A stretch of 64,000 nt of DNA. Source: Alkalispirochaeta americana (GTDB lineage Bacteria; Spirochaetota; Spirochaetia; DSM-27196; Alkalispirochaetaceae). Made by a program: the position numbers and the translations under genes. The stretch is from the NCBI RefSeq assembly GCF_900156105.1, contig NZ_FTMS01000008.1, forward strand, positions 62,001-126,000, given 5' to 3'. Shown one piece after another: positions 40,548 through 46,683 of the stretch. The number at the start of each line of letters is the position of its first letter. The first letter of the stretch is position 1. Below the pieces are notes generated by a model. It ran no database searches. It was not told the origin of the DNA and worked only from the letters and a program-made list of their open reading frames with translations.

Positions 40548-41747
40548 ATGAACCCGATCGTACGACTCTGGCAGGAACCCAAAAACCGGCTCCTGGCATT
40601 AATGGGCGCTGTATTTCTTGCTGCTTTTTTTATCCCCTGGGAGGCTCCCCGCCTGATGGCGGGGGTGCAGGAATCGTTCCTGCTCCTCAATTATTACGCT
40701 CGCGAACACGTTTTGCTGTGCCTGATTCCCGCTTTCTTTATTGCCGGCGCGATCACGGTCTTTCTGAACCAGCAGGCCGTTATCCGCTACCTGGGGCCGG
40801 ATGCTCCAAAGCTCCTGGCCTACAGTGTGGCCTCCGTCTCGGGGACTATCCTGGCCGTGTGCTCCTGCACCGTATTGCCTCTTTTCAAGGGGATATACAA
40901 GAAAGGAGCCGGTCTTGGTCCCGCTGTGAGCTTTCTCTACAGCGGACCGGCCATCAATATTCTCGCGATCATCCTCACCGCCAAAGTCCTGGGGCTGCAG
41001 CTGGGCATTGCCCGGGCTCTGGGAGCGATCGCCTTCGCCTTTATCATTGGTCTGGCTATGCACCTGATCTTTTTCCGGGAGGACCGGGAGCGAACCACCA
41101 ACGCCGCGATGTTCCAGGGTGACGAGAGCCAGGAACGATCGCTACCCCAGATGGGGCTCTATCTTGGGTCCATGATCGGTGTTCTGGTCTTCCTTAACTG
41201 GGCCCCTGGCGATGGAACTATCGGCTGGTGGGAGACGCTGCACCGGTTTCGCCTGGTGATCGCTGGTGGCTTTGGATTGCTTCTTTTGTATACGCTGGTT
41301 CGCTGGTTTACCCGGACCGAACTGGGAAACTGGGTGGCTGCCACCCGGGACTTTGCGGTACAGATACTTCCCCTGCTCTTTGCCGGTGTCATGGTTGCAG
41401 GTTTTCTCTTGGGCAGACCCGGTGAAATGGCCCTGATTCCCGAGGAGTGGATCGCTCGGGCTGTGGGAACCAACTCCCTGGCAAGCAATCTCTTTGCCTC
41501 CCTGGCGGGGGCACTCATGTACTTCGCAACGCTCACCGAGGTGCCCATTATGCAGGGCCTCCTGGGGGCGGGGATGAACCAGGGACCGGCCCTGGCGCTT
41601 CTTCTGGCAGGCCCCTCGCTCTCCCTGCCGGCTTTGCTGGTGATCGGCGGCGAACTGGGACCGCGCAAGACCCTCACCTACGTGGCCCTGGTGGTGACCC
41701 TCTCCACCCTGGCCGGCATGATCTACGGAAGTGTGATGGCCCTGTAA
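40548..41747 (+). CDS. ArsP/YraQ-type permease (DUF318)
   Basis: 399 residues with about ten hydrophobic helices in two repeats. The conserved first-repeat motif AVCSCTVLPLFKGIYKKGAGLGPAVSF and the second-repeat LTEVPIMQGLLGAGMNQGPALALLLAGPSLSL define the family, which includes the organoarsenical exporter ArsP. A CxC-type cysteine pair lies in the first motif. It follows the thioredoxin-like gene and precedes the arsR operon, so an arsenical transport role is likely but the substrate is inferred. Confidence 0.85.
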   Translation: MNPIVRLWQEPKNRLLALMGAVFLAAFFIPWEAPRLMAGVQESFLLLNYYAREHVLLCLIPAFFIAGAITVFLNQQAVIRYLGPDAPKLLAYSVASVSGTILAVCSCTVLPLFKGIYKKGAGLGPAVSFLYSGPAINILAIILTAKVLGLQLGIARALGAIAFAFIIGLAMHLIFFREDRERTTNAAMFQGDESQERSLPQMGLYLGSMIGVLVFLNWAPGDGTIGWWETLHRFRLVIAGGFGLLLLYTLVRWFTRTELGNWVAATRDFAVQILPLLFAGVMVAGFLLGRPGEMALIPEEWIARAVGTNSLASNLFASLAGALMYFATLTEVPIMQGLLGAGMNQGPALALLLAGPSLSLPALLVIGGELGPRKTLTYVALVVTLSTLAGMIYGSVMAL

Positions 41748-41874: not shown

Positions 41875-41903
41875 TTGACACGGCCAGCTCTCATGCCTAC
41901 ATT
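41875..41903 (+). promoter_or_regulatory. Promoter of the arsR operon
   Basis: A perfect TTGACA (41875-41880), 17 bases, then TACATT (41898-41903). This is the best promoter match in the arsenic region and directly precedes the operator-like repeat. Confidence 0.7.
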
Positions 41904-41968: not shown

Positions 41969-42385
41969 ATGAACACCCTGGGCGGACTTTTCAAAACCCT
42001 GGCAGATGAAACCCGGCTGAGGCTGATATACCTCTTTCTGCGCAGTAGCGATTCTCTTTGCGTATGCGAACTGGTAGATGCCCTGGGCCTTCCACAGTAC
42101 CAGGTTTCCCGCCACCTGAGCGCACTCAAGGCAGCCGGTTTGGTACAGGCCACCAAACAGGGAACCTGGGCGTATCACTACCTTGAAGAAGGCTCGCCCC
42201 TGATTCAGGCACTGTGGACATTCCTGCGGGAAGCGCCCTTGAGCGCCGACTCACAGGAGCAAATTCAGCAGGATTACCAGGCCCTGACACACCGCCTTGC
42301 CCTGAGAAGCAACGGATGTTGTGTGGTGGGCCTCAACCCGAACCCTCTCAAAGACCCGACACCAAAAGGAGATACATTCATATGA
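41969..42385 (+). CDS. arsR: ArsR-family arsenite-responsive repressor
   Basis: About 138 residues from the ATG at 41969 (an upstream ATG at 41906 lies inside the operator). Winged-helix protein with the metal site SLCVCEL (C31, C33) at the start of the recognition region, matching the ELCVCDL type of As(III) sensors, and the helix YQVSRHLSALKAAGLV. A second cysteine pair (NGCCVVG) near the C-terminus is unusual. AAGGAG is 11 bases upstream. The stop overlaps the arsD start (ATGA). Confidence 0.92.
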   Translation: MNTLGGLFKTLADETRLRLIYLFLRSSDSLCVCELVDALGLPQYQVSRHLSALKAAGLVQATKQGTWAYHYLEEGSPLIQALWTFLREAPLSADSQEQIQQDYQALTHRLALRSNGCCVVGLNPNPLKDPTPKGDTFI

Positions 42386-42786
42386 GCGATACCGTAACCA
42401 TAGAGATCTTTGACCCGCCCATGTGCTGCCCCGGGGGCTTGTGTGGTCCTGCGATCGATCCGGCACTTCTGGATATGAACGAAACGATTCTGACGCTGAA
42501 AAACGACCACGGCATCGTGATTCAGCGGTACCTGTTGCAGCAACAGGGCCAAAAGTTCATGGAGAACCCGGCCGTTCTGGAGCTCCTTCAGAAGCATAAC
42601 ACCGATATCCTGCCCGTCACCGTTGTGAACGGCAAGGTAGTCAAGACAAAGGCCTTTCCAACCTGCCATGAGCTGCTTGCCTGGAGCGGAGGAGAAACGC
42701 CGGAACCAAAGGGCGCCGGAGCCGTAGCCGTAGCCGTAGCCGAAACCGATGCCGAAAGCACAACAAGCAAGGATGAATCACTATGA
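42382..42786 (+). CDS. arsD: Arsenite metallochaperone ArsD
   Basis: 134 residues. ArsD hands As(III) to the ArsA ATPase and weakly represses the operon. The required cysteines are present as MCCPGGLCG (C15, C16, C21), and the thioredoxin-like core ends with VVNGKVVKTKAFPT. The C-terminal tail after residue 110 is a low-complexity Ala/Val/Glu stretch encoded by short repeats. ATGA overlaps on both sides couple it to arsR and arsA. Confidence 0.93.
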   Translation: MSDTVTIEIFDPPMCCPGGLCGPAIDPALLDMNETILTLKNDHGIVIQRYLLQQQGQKFMENPAVLELLQKHNTDILPVTVVNGKVVKTKAFPTCHELLAWSGGETPEPKGAGAVAVAVAETDAESTTSKDESL

Positions 42787-44774
42787 CGAAAAACGATACA
42801 CACTATATCTTCTTCTCCGGTAAAGGCGGCGTGGGAAAGACCACCATGGCCTGTGCCACCGCCGTCCATAATGCCCAGGAAGGCAATCGGACCCTGATCG
42901 TAACAACCGATCCCGCGTCAAACCTCTCGGACGTCTTTGAAACCGAGATCGGTCACAATATCCGCCCCCTGGGAAAATCCCGGGGAATCGACAACCTCTG
43001 GGGTATGGAGATCGATCCGGATCGTGCCACCGAGGAGTACCGTGAACGCATTCTCGCACCAATGCGCGCGGTGATGCCGGAAAACGTGATGAAGGTGATG
43101 GAGGAGCAGTTTAACTCCCCCTGCACCACGGAGATCGCCTCCTTTGACCGTTTTGTGGACTTCATGTCTGGCGACGACGCATCCCGGGCAGCTCCAGGGG
43201 AAGATGGATCCCCTGGCGGCAGCGCTGGCGCAGCCTGGGACGTAGTAATCTTTGACACCGCTCCTACGGGCCACACCCTGCGTCTCCTGGAGTTGCCCGT
43301 GGACTGGAGCAAACATATCGAGGAAAGCGCCAGGGGGAGCGGGAACACCTGCATCGGCCCGGTGGCCTCAATCCAGGAAAACAAGGCCAAGTACGACGAG
43401 GCCACCCGCCTGCTGGGTGACCCCACCCGTACAGAGTTCACCTTTGTGTTGCAGCCGGAAGAAACGTCAATTTATGAGACCCGTCGATCCTCCAGCGAGC
43501 TTGCTGAAATCGGGGTCGCGAATACCCGGTTGATCGTCAACGGGATACTCCCGGAGGCTGTCTGCGAGCACCCCTTCTTCCGCAGCCGCTATGAGATGCA
43601 GCAACGCCATCTCCAACAGATTCGCAGCGAGTTTTCCGTCCCTCTGACCTTTATGTATCAGCGCGATGGTGAGATCAAGGGCCTTGCCGGTTTGCGCCAC
43701 GTGGCCAGAGATCTCTTTGCCGGCCAGGACCACAGGCCGGACTATCTGCTCCAGGCCGACACTACGGAGAATTCTCCGGAATCCCTCACCGACTCGCCCT
43801 CCTACGAGGAGCAGGATTCGCGCTCCTTGCTGGACACAATCAGCCCGGTCCGGGGAAAAACCAAGGCTCTGTTCTTTACCGGAAAGGGCGGCGTTGGCAA
43901 GACAACCGTCTCCTGCGCCACAGCCTTTGCCTTGGGACGCGCGGGATTCAAGACGTTGCTGCTCACCACAGACCCGGCATCGCACATTGGCCAGGTGCTG
44001 GAACAACCAATTGGCGACACGATTACTCCGGTGCAGGGAGCGGAAAACCTCGATGCCGTGATGATCGACCAGGAAGCTGCTGTGGCTGAGTACAAGGAGC
44101 GGATCCTCGCCGACGCCCGGAGGAAGTACTCCGAGGATATGCTGATAGCGGTCAAGGAGGAGCTTGAGTCGCCCTGCACCGAAGAGATGGCAGCCTTTGA
44201 CAAGTTCATGTGGTACGTGGAGCGCGAGGAATACGACCTGGTAGTCTTCGACACCGCTCCCACGGGACATACCCTGCGATTGCTGGAGTTACCCTTTGAC
44301 TACGCTGACCAGGTCGGGATGATGGTCACTACCACAGGAGAAGGGAATACCGCCAAAAGCGAGACCCAGGCCCGATTCGACAGGATCATCGCACAGATGA
44401 AGGACCCGGACCGCAGCGCCTTTGGTTTTGTGGTCTACCCGGAATCAACTCCCGTGATTGAGGCATACCGGGCGATGGTGGATCTGAGGGCTGCCGGGAT
44501 CGAGACGCAGTTTGTCGTGGCCAACCAGGTACTTCAGAAGGAATACTGCACCAACGATTTCTTCCGAAAGCGCCGGACGATGCAGGAAAAATACCTGGGC
44601 AAGATCAACCAGCGTTTTCAGTTGCCCGTGACAATTATGCCGCTCTTTGAGACGGAAATCACCGGCCTGGCCATGGTGGAACGCGCCGCCGACTCGCTCC
44701 TGGCAGGATCACTCCAGTCCGGCACGGCAGGGGACGGGACGCGGGTAAAGACAAAAACGGTAGCAGGAGGCTGA
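42783..44774 (+). CDS. arsA: Arsenical pump-driving ATPase ArsA
   Basis: 663 residues made of two homologous halves. Each has a deviant Walker A (GKGGVGKTT near 13-21 and 368-376) and a DTAPTGHTLRLLELP signature. The three cysteines that bind As(III) in the E. coli enzyme can be matched to C114 (SPCTTEIASF), C190 (CIGPVAS) and C465 (SPCTEEMAAF). A Gly/Ser/Asp-rich insert lies at about 130-150. Coupled to arsD. No arsB or acr3 follows, so its membrane partner is unclear. Confidence 0.95.
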   Translation: MTKNDTHYIFFSGKGGVGKTTMACATAVHNAQEGNRTLIVTTDPASNLSDVFETEIGHNIRPLGKSRGIDNLWGMEIDPDRATEEYRERILAPMRAVMPENVMKVMEEQFNSPCTTEIASFDRFVDFMSGDDASRAAPGEDGSPGGSAGAAWDVVIFDTAPTGHTLRLLELPVDWSKHIEESARGSGNTCIGPVASIQENKAKYDEATRLLGDPTRTEFTFVLQPEETSIYETRRSSSELAEIGVANTRLIVNGILPEAVCEHPFFRSRYEMQQRHLQQIRSEFSVPLTFMYQRDGEIKGLAGLRHVARDLFAGQDHRPDYLLQADTTENSPESLTDSPSYEEQDSRSLLDTISPVRGKTKALFFTGKGGVGKTTVSCATAFALGRAGFKTLLLTTDPASHIGQVLEQPIGDTITPVQGAENLDAVMIDQEAAVAEYKERILADARRKYSEDMLIAVKEELESPCTEEMAAFDKFMWYVEREEYDLVVFDTAPTGHTLRLLELPFDYADQVGMMVTTTGEGNTAKSETQARFDRIIAQMKDPDRSAFGFVVYPESTPVIEAYRAMVDLRAAGIETQFVVANQVLQKEYCTNDFFRKRRTMQEKYLGKINQRFQLPVTIMPLFETEITGLAMVERAADSLLAGSLQSGTAGDGTRVKTKTVAGG

Positions 44775-44777
44775 CCG

Positions 44778-45005
44778 GTGACCTACGAGTACCAATGCGA
44801 AAAGTGCGGGAACACCTTCGATGTCACCGCCTCCATCGCCGAGAAGGCGGCCGGCCTGGAGCCGGCCTGCCCGGAGTGCGGATCAAAACAGACGTCGCAA
44901 CTCTTTGGCGGAGTGGGAATACTCTCGGGCGCAGGCACCTCCAGCCCCGGCGGAAGTTTCGGCGGTGGCCTCTGTGGCCCCGGCAGGGGCTCCGGGTGCT
45001 GCTGA
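44778..45005 (+). CDS. FmdB-like zinc-ribbon protein with cysteine tail
   Basis: 75 residues from a GTG three bases after the arsA stop, with AGGAGG at seven bases. The N-terminal MTYEYQCEKCG and PACPECGS form the zinc ribbon typical of FmdB-type putative regulatory proteins. The tail is Gly/Ser-rich and contains LCGPGRGSGCC, ending in two cysteines; LCGP also occurs in ArsD. The tight spacing and this tail suggest a part in the arsenic operon. Confidence 0.75.
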   Translation: MTYEYQCEKCGNTFDVTASIAEKAAGLEPACPECGSKQTSQLFGGVGILSGAGTSSPGGSFGGGLCGPGRGSGCC

Positions 45006-45022
45006 ATCAAGGGAGCACAGCG

Positions 45023-45316
45023 ATGAATGCTGAACAGGTGGTGCGGATCTTTGTGCCACCTACCGGCGAGTGCGCCGGAGACAACACCTGGGAGAAGGCA
45101 GCCCGGGGGATCGAGGAACGGCTACGAAGACGAACCGGCATCAAGGTCCGATTCGAAACGATCTACCTCTTTAGCCCGGAATTCTTTGCCCACCCCGAGG
45201 TGGCCCAACTGATTCAATCAGGACAGAAGCCACCGATCATCATGGTCAATAACCGGATAATTCAGGCCGGCGGAAAGCTCCGGGAACGAACCATACGGGA
45301 AGCACTGGAAGGCTGA
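45023..45316 (+). CDS. Small thioredoxin-fold-like protein of unknown function
   Basis: 97 residues. The N-terminal strand VRIFVPPTGECAGDN contains the only Cys (C17), a helix follows, and the later PPIIMVNNRIIQAGG segment resembles the cis-Pro/strand part of thioredoxin-like folds. I do not recognise a named family; resemblance to YuzD-like proteins is possible. AAGGGAG lies before the ATG, 17 bases after the FmdB-like gene, so it is in the same operon. Confidence 0.6.
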   Translation: MNAEQVVRIFVPPTGECAGDNTWEKAARGIEERLRRRTGIKVRFETIYLFSPEFFAHPEVAQLIQSGQKPPIIMVNNRIIQAGGKLRERTIREALEG

Positions 45317-45386
45317 AATGCACGATCCCGGCAATAACGGATACGGATACGGCCGGATACGGACCAAAAACAACCAGGAGCACGAG

Positions 45387-45770
45387 ATGACGACAGACAC
45401 GACAATAAATCAGGATATAGCAACAGCAGCGCAGGCCTTTGCCGCCGGATTGTCGGAAACACCGGAATACAGGGAATACGAAGCGGCCTCCGAGGCGTAT
45501 CAGCAGGATGCGGAAGCCCGGGATCTATTGCGAACATTTCAAATGGCGCAAGAGCAGACTCAACGCACGACCGCCTGGGGCGGAACCGCCGACGATGCCC
45601 AAACCCTGGAAGATCTCCGGAGCCAGGTAACCTCCAACGCGGTACTCTCGCGTTTTTTCGCCTCCCAGGAGAATCTGGTGCACCTCCTGAAGGAAACCAA
45701 TACATATATGACAGAACGATTGGGCTTTGATTTTGCAACCCTCACCAAACCTGCCGGCGGATGTTGCTGA
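45387..45770 (+). CDS. YlbF/YmcA-family protein ending in GGCC
   Basis: 127 residues from the ATG at 45387, which has AGGAG at seven bases. An all-helical YlbF-type domain (YREYEAASEAYQQD, RTFQMAQEQTQ) followed by a flexible tail. The only two cysteines are the last two residues. In Bacillus the related RicA and RicF form an Fe-S-binding complex with RicT, so cysteines matter in this family. Placement in an ars operon is unusual. Confidence 0.75.
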   Translation: MTTDTTINQDIATAAQAFAAGLSETPEYREYEAASEAYQQDAEARDLLRTFQMAQEQTQRTTAWGGTADDAQTLEDLRSQVTSNAVLSRFFASQENLVHLLKETNTYMTERLGFDFATLTKPAGGCC

Positions 45771-45812
45771 CCCTCAGGTCCAGCACTGCCACACCAACGA
45801 AAGGACCCTGCC

Positions 45813-46178
45813 ATGACCAACGCACTAAAGCAAGCTACCGACACGTTCATCGCGGCGCTTGAAAAGGCTCCACCGGTACATACCTTCCAGGAAGCCAACC
45901 GCCTCTTTGAAAGCAGCGAGGAACTTCAGGGTTTGCGCGAACAGTACAGCGCCCTGGCGCACGAACTTCAGCAGAAACAGATGGAGGGCACTCTGACACA
46001 GGAGAACATCACCGAACTGCGCGCGATCCAGAACCAGGTAAACACCCACAAGATCACCGCAAACCTGCTGAGCACCCGGAACGAAGCTGTGACAACACTG
46101 GGTCTGGCAAACCGGACGATCAGCGAGATCGTAGGGTTTGATTATGCCGCCACTGCAGCACCGGCAAGGACGTGCTGA
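45813..46178 (+). CDS. Second YlbF-family protein with a single terminal cysteine
   Basis: 121 residues. The helical pattern (FQEANRLFESSEELQGLREQYSAL, then LQQKQMEGTLTQENITELR) matches the YlbF/YmcA fold and the upstream protein. The only cysteine is the final residue (APARTC). AAAGGA precedes the ATG. Both YlbF-type genes are the last of the arsR transcript, before a convergent hairpin. They may form a heterodimer; that is inference. Confidence 0.75.
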   Translation: MTNALKQATDTFIAALEKAPPVHTFQEANRLFESSEELQGLREQYSALAHELQQKQMEGTLTQENITELRAIQNQVNTHKITANLLSTRNEAVTTLGLANRTISEIVGFDYAATAAPARTC

Positions 46179-46248: not shown

Positions 46249-46683
46249 TCAACCCAGGACCCGTTCCACGAAGTCCTTGCTCTTCGCCCGAATCTGGTCC
46301 CGGATCGGCCGCACGAAGGCAAGCTTCTCTTCCATGGTTCCGGTCGCCTTCGACGGATCCGGAAAGGGCCAGTGGAGCCGCTCCTTTTCAGCCGGAAAGA
46401 TCGGACAACGCTCAGCCGCTTCCTTGTCGCACACGGCTATCACATAGTCAAAACGCTCCCCGGCTGTATGCAGATCGAAGACGCTGCGGGTACTCTTGCC
46501 GGTTATATCGATCCCGTCTTCTTTCAGCAGCTCCACCACCACCGGGTTCAGCGTCCCCGGTTCGATTCCGGCACTCACGACCTCAAGAGAATCTCCGGCG
46601 GCTTGACGGATGAACTCTTCTGTCATTTGGCTTCGGGCGCTGTTATGTATGCAGATCGCCAACACTCGTGGTTTTAAACTCAT
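46249..46683 (-). CDS. arsC: Arsenate reductase, thioredoxin-coupled type
   Basis: 144 residues, low-molecular-weight phosphatase fold. The CX5R loop is CIHNSAR (C11, R17), and the two relay cysteines are C85 and C93 in VCDKEAAERCP, with DP in PFPDPS as the acid. It reduces As(V) to As(III), which the neighbouring operon would handle. It is on the opposite strand with its own promoter region (46684-46869), so it may be regulated separately. Confidence 0.93.
   Translation of the reverse strand: MSLKPRVLAICIHNSARSQMTEEFIRQAAGDSLEVVSAGIEPGTLNPVVVELLKEDGIDITGKSTRSVFDLHTAGERFDYVIAVCDKEAAERCPIFPAEKERLHWPFPDPSKATGTMEEKLAFVRPIRDQIRAKSKDFVERVLG

Follow-up and report, generated by a model that had tools for sequence, protein, structure and literature searches.

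Behind arsA in an arsenic-resistance operon of Alkalispirochaeta americana lies a putative accessory module of four small genes that is conserved and linked to arsA in several bacterial phyla, and that recurs in a shorter form in haloarchaea. In its two YlbF-type proteins, here called YlbF-L and YlbF-S, the residues that never vary are the cysteines at their very ends, a pattern which suggests that these proteins grip arsenite for the pump. The module was found in a window of 64,000 nucleotides, the whole stretch of DNA that was analysed (contig NZ_FTMS01000008.1, positions 62,001 to 126,000). Our working view, which we hold with roughly even confidence, is that it serves as an accessory of the ArsA-type operon, a thiol relay or adaptor that links As(III) to the ArsA ATPase.

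Between 41969 and 46178, the genes run in the order arsR-arsD-arsA-fmdB-p97-ylbF-L-ylbF-S, with an ArsP_1 permease gene upstream and a convergent arsC-like gene downstream (Table 1); the latter scores 114.6 bits against TIGR02691, below the cut-off of 174.3. From arsR, for which 41969 is the likely start, to ylbF-S, neighbouring genes either overlap or lie no more than about 70 nt apart. A consensus scan gave one promoter-like match upstream of the operon, adjoining arsR, but its two matches in total are not above chance (2.1 from shuffled sequence), and the operon structure is therefore judged from gene spacing. A first-pass annotation, made from the sequence alone, had placed four small genes directly after arsR-arsD-arsA, and all four open reading frames are indeed present, with family names backed by Pfam and NCBIfam matches.

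Table 1. Features of the ars locus in the window.
Feature	Position	Strand	Basis
ArsP_1 / SO_0444-type permease	40548..41747	+	PF03773, 250 bits
Promoter-like TTGACA-17-TACATT, upstream of arsR	41875..41903	+	Consensus scan
arsR, As(III)-sensor type (LCVCE), C-terminal CVVG Cys	41969..42385	+	Pfam/NCBIfam and related loci
arsD, metalloid-binding C15-C16...C21	42382..42786	+	NF033727, 106.8 bits (cut-off 90)
arsA, two-domain ATPase	42783..44774	+	PF02374, 487 bits
FmdB-type zinc ribbon, tail ..CGPGRGSGCC	44778..45005	+	PF09723 and TIGR02605
97-aa ArsD-like thioredoxin-fold protein (P97)	45023..45316	+	ArsD profile match, model, structural match
YlbF-L (HcsL-like), ends GGCC	45387..45770	+	PF06133, 63.4 bits
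YlbF-S, ends in single Cys	45813..46178	+	PF06133, 46.6 bits
arsC-like low-molecular-weight phosphatase-fold arsenate reductase, convergent	46249..46683	-	PF01451

The three ArsD cysteines are invariant in our alignment, and the operon contains a true arsD. ArsA carries two PF02374 domains, and its C114, C190 and C465 are invariant among aligned ArsA proteins; we take them to be the equivalents of the metalloid site of E. coli ArsA (C113/C172/C422). Its best solved relatives are ArsA structures (1f48), and its nearest relatives in a scan of one genome per species come from Spirochaetota. ArsR has a CVC motif and, near its C-terminus, the stretch NGCCVVG. The extra CC remarked on in the first-pass annotation is thus present, but among related ars loci only the second cysteine, that of CVVG, is kept.

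YlbF-L is better started at 45387, where CAGGAG lies upstream, which gives a protein of 127 residues; YlbF-S has 121, and both exceed the PF06133 (Com_YlbF) cut-off of 23.9 bits. As the first reading had it, cysteines occur only at the extreme C-terminus of each protein, as the last two residues of YlbF-L and the last residue of YlbF-S. The same positions stand out when arsA-linked relatives are aligned: C126 and C127 are the only invariant columns in YlbF-L (n = 24, with as little as 22% identity to the window protein), and C121 is the only one in YlbF-S (n = 22, as little as 16%). That the terminal cysteines should be the sole invariant columns across phyla at such identities is more than chance. 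In a predicted structure, YlbF-L forms a helical hairpin with a disordered C-terminal tail. A YlbF tree, which has few columns and many unresolved forks and was used for these two placements alone, splits L from S (95/95) and groups the haloarchaeal HcsL with L.

To see how widely the module accompanies arsA, we searched one genome per species with the ArsA alignment and annotated the best 80 ArsA loci with local HMMs. Of these 80, 25 had YlbF genes no further than 6 kb from arsA, which by phylum (as judged by record title) makes 4/10 loci in Spirochaetota, 4/9 in Ignavibacteria/Bacteroidota, 1/2 in Deltaproteobacteria and 15/23 in Chloroflexota, as well as UASB270. They were found in none of 21 Nitrospirota and none of 10 Firmicutes loci of this set; many of its contigs are short, which makes the presence counts lower limits. 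The YlbF pair as an obligate ArsA partner is ruled out by the Nitrospirota and Firmicutes loci, and more than half of the closest ArsA loci have no pair (some on contigs too short to tell), so that ArsA does not require it. A 117-aa gene after arsA on an Alicyclobacillus plasmid was also considered as a YlbF, a reading that its sequence does not support. FmdB and P97 accompany the pair in varying order and are sometimes present without it. Three Nitrospirota ArsA loci that lack the pair still have a CC-tailed FmdB (L093:3535-3741, L094:3398-3604, L114:9358-9540).

Of 301 Chloroflexota genomes sampled, nine have true YlbF genes: four beside ArsA, including the one in the genome used as centre, and another three next to an ArsP_1 permease, which in two cases is joined by ArsR. 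Among 14 genomes picked for carrying an arsA-linked pair, that pair was the only YlbF in 11. Away from ArsA loci, some YlbF pairs have ArsP_1/SO_0444-type permeases, ArsR-type regulators or HMA proteins encoded nearby, as might be the case if the module genes were arsenic-inducible housekeeping for metal thiols (copper, zinc or other soft metals) that rides in ars operons without touching ArsA. We think this improbable, as the tightest and widest linkage is to arsD-arsA, the genes overlapping or nearly overlapping in archaea and Chloroflexota.

Several other genes recur around the module. A CoaC-like flavoprotein gene lies beside it (L077:5029-5631 by family search; L084:6276-6875 and L118:12989-13561 by eye), and SufC-like and SufB/SufD-like genes occur close to the module and to an ArsP_1 permease, or between the two (L084:12994-14692, L218:3592-5408). 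A BshB/MshB-like deacetylase gene is another repeated neighbour (L129:8257-9072, family-searched; L134:13914-14732, L084:12270-13019) and hints at low-molecular-weight thiols.

The first-pass annotation had held that YlbF-type proteins were not known in ars operons. This proved wrong for haloarchaea, where NCBIfam has HcsL and HcsS beside arsA under the name 'halo-CC-star'; we found no paper on this form in the open-access literature. The two genes follow this ArsA in 24 of 24 haloarchaeal plasmid records, several of them from strains of one species, and the annotated order is arsD-arsA-hcsL-hcsS, as on pNRC100 of Halobacterium NRC-1. Window YlbF-L ends in CC behind arsA as HcsL does, but two small genes intervene, and neither window protein reaches the cut-off of 140 bits of the HcsL equivalog NF041416 (YlbF-L 72.0, YlbF-S 31.6). 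These intervening genes, fmdB and p97, accompany the bacterial form; neither was seen in the haloarchaeal annotated regions examined. We found no earlier account of the bacterial form, with its FmdB and ArsD-like proteins, and nothing relevant on YlbF, Com_YlbF, FmdB or HcsL in connection with arsenic turned up in the open-access literature.

The FmdB protein, which starts with GTG, has the CxxC...CxxC of a zinc ribbon and scores above the cut-offs of both PF09723 (46.2 bits versus 34.4) and TIGR02605 (48.4 versus 31.3). It ends in GSGCC, and P97 has a single cysteine (C17), as first described. Across 24 loci, arsA-linked FmdB proteins have C7, C10, C31, C34, C66 and C75 invariant and C74 in more than 90%; seven of seven end in cysteine, six of them in CC, in one case followed by Gly. 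About 20 FmdB paralogues from the same genomes include none that ends in CC, which rules out the tail as a general FmdB feature. The CC tail is specific to the ars-linked copies.

P97 from the window has no match in Pfam. Its profile matches ArsD with 96.5% probability, and an AlphaFold2 model (pLDDT 93.6) has ArsD (3mwh) as its best match (Foldseek E 6e-4; VIA-align Z 9.3 over 86 residues, rmsd 3.2), followed by SA0789 (1xg8), with generic thioredoxins lower. A single loop cysteine is kept in all 32 relatives, as counted by eye. The CC...C triad of ArsD (C12-C13-C18 type) is absent, and P97 is thus, on profile and model, an ArsD-like protein with a thioredoxin fold and one conserved cysteine rather than an ArsD. 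Weak matches to DUF1462 (PF07315) occur in 14 of 30 relatives (best E 3e-4).

How might these proteins act together? As(III) prefers three thiolates. In the RicA-RicF pair of Bacillus, the C-terminal cysteines meet at an iron-sulphur cluster, and by analogy the tails of L and S would come together and offer CC plus C, the number of thiolates that As(III) prefers. This favours the As(III) relay or adaptor for ArsA. In such a relay, YlbF-L and YlbF-S would form a helical heterodimer, as judged from RicA-RicF, and their flexible tails, with at least three cysteines between them, could build a joint three-thiolate site for As(III). The FmdB tail and the single-cysteine P97 may be further thiol carriers or docking partners. 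As(III) would in this way be buffered, shielded from other thiols and passed on to ArsD/ArsA.

Another possibility is that the ligand is a cluster. The ligands of cluster 2 in B. subtilis RicAFT are C-terminal cysteines of RicF (C134, C146) and RicA (C141) together with C167 of RicT (PMC6751060). By the same token, the L/S pair could be Ric-like: with or without a RicT-type PSP1 protein, its terminal cysteines would ligate a [4Fe-4S] cluster, and the pair would protect, sense or repair clusters under arsenite stress. Encoded in the window genome (C16, ~67.2 kb) is a PSP1 protein whose CX4CCX30CX4CC motif is exactly that of RicT, and this genome has two YlbF pairs. The second of these (L003:1429-3145; C4, ~60.9-62.6 kb) ends in GGCC and SSCCG and is followed by a flavin/Fe-S oxidoreductase gene with a DHODB-type Fe-S domain, rather than by an ars operon. 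Other Cys-ended spirochaete pairs outside ars operons lie beside ApbC, malic enzyme, pyruvate dehydrogenase-type or tat genes, several of these neighbours having been identified by eye, and SufC/SufB-like genes also adjoin related pairs. Cysteine tails on YlbF pairs beside Fe-S-related genes mean that the ligand need not be arsenic. Against a cluster, RicAF alone takes none (PMC6751060), PSP1 was not found in 5 of the 14 genomes (drafts) with an arsA-linked pair nor in the H. volcanii control, and CC plus C is all that is left here of RicF/RicA's four-ligand pattern. On balance we regard the cluster as less likely than the relay, though a serious alternative and the strongest of them.

Cysteine tails exclusive to arsenic are ruled out by these same non-ars pairs. 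The first-pass annotation had raised the question of whether YlbF homologues elsewhere lack the terminal cysteine, and the answer is divided: no tail cysteine is found in any of 27 classical single YlbFs of Spirochaetota, and most Chloroflexota S-type or fused YlbFs away from ArsA have no terminal cysteine, but spirochaete pairs away from ars operons carry terminal cysteines. The tail therefore marks the paired YlbF group, of which arsenic is the most widespread setting and not the only one. At L034:7174-8619, a YlbF pair with Cys-rich tails is followed by an ArsR-type regulator ending in ..CVVGLQESCDC, with no arsA nearby. At three other loci, a pair stands directly behind an ApbC/Mrp-type Fe-S carrier ATPase (L055:9145-11200, L049:4744-6824, L054:3788-5997), which belongs to the same broad class of ATPases as its relative ArsA. 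More generally, YlbF pairs may act with ATPases that carry a cargo.

Membership of the RicA/RicF family also recalls the Bacillus Y-complex, and the pair could in principle be a specificity factor for RNase Y that tunes the stability of ars mRNA. Of the 15 genomes tested, 13 encode RNase Y, the window genome among them. However, haloarchaea have the module as well, a search of the H. volcanii control gave neither RNase Y nor PSP1, and two pair-bearing genomes have no detectable RNase Y and five no PSP1. Such a role is very unlikely in our estimation. The first-pass annotation had envisaged a new module for arsenite handling, cluster repair or an mRNA-level response; a conserved, arsA-linked module is what emerged, and the mRNA-level role is unlikely to be general.

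As for the pump partner, no match to Acr3 or ArsB was found in the window genome (a draft, 95.6% complete). This leaves the ArsP_1 / SO_0444-type permease as a candidate, and no other possible pump was found close to the operon. A link between ArsA and ArsP has already been suggested by a survey (PMC2963123), and the As(III)/Sb(III) resistance that arsADRC gives Halobacterium NRC-1 owes nothing to ArsB, a novel transporter having been proposed (PMC3600143). ArsA is a textbook arsenite ATPase, but ArsB has no part in the resistance of NRC-1, and the window genome likewise lacks ArsB and Acr3 matches. We found no study of the module in the open-access literature, nor, for Halobacterium, of the two genes right behind arsA. 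As the boldest reading, we tentatively propose, at less than even confidence, an ArsA accessory common to both domains: a YlbF heterodimer with an intersubunit three-thiolate As(III) site on disordered tails, joined by an ArsD paralogue and a Cys-tailed zinc ribbon, with ArsA working without ArsB or Acr3 and perhaps with an ArsP_1-type permease. If true, the YlbF family, whose known work in Bacillus is in RNA processing, would gain a thiol or metalloid role, and the cysteine tails would be explained.

Like Bacillus RicA/RicF (YmcA/YlbF) of RicAFT, the YlbF pair of the module comprises two different proteins of Com_YlbF fold with C-terminal cysteines that probably matter here too; the Bacillus pair, however, is not linked to arsenic, needs RicT for its cluster and has larger tails with more cysteines. 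With HcsL/HcsS (NF041416 and partner) it shares a YlbF-type pair behind arsA, the GGCC end of L and a common tree group, whereas haloarchaeal S has a CC end and a length of only about 61 aa, compared with the single terminal cysteine of the longer window protein. The FmdB protein is a zinc ribbon by its TIGR02605 score, but arsA-linked copies have a CGP..GCC tail in place of a Ser-rich or charged one. P97 has its second-best structural match in the YuzD/SA0789 family (DUF1462); the DUF1462 matches of its relatives are weak, and P97 itself has none. Finally, P97 shares both fold and sequence profile with the ArsD metallochaperone, but keeps one loop cysteine in place of the triad, and stands in an operon that has a separate, true ArsD.
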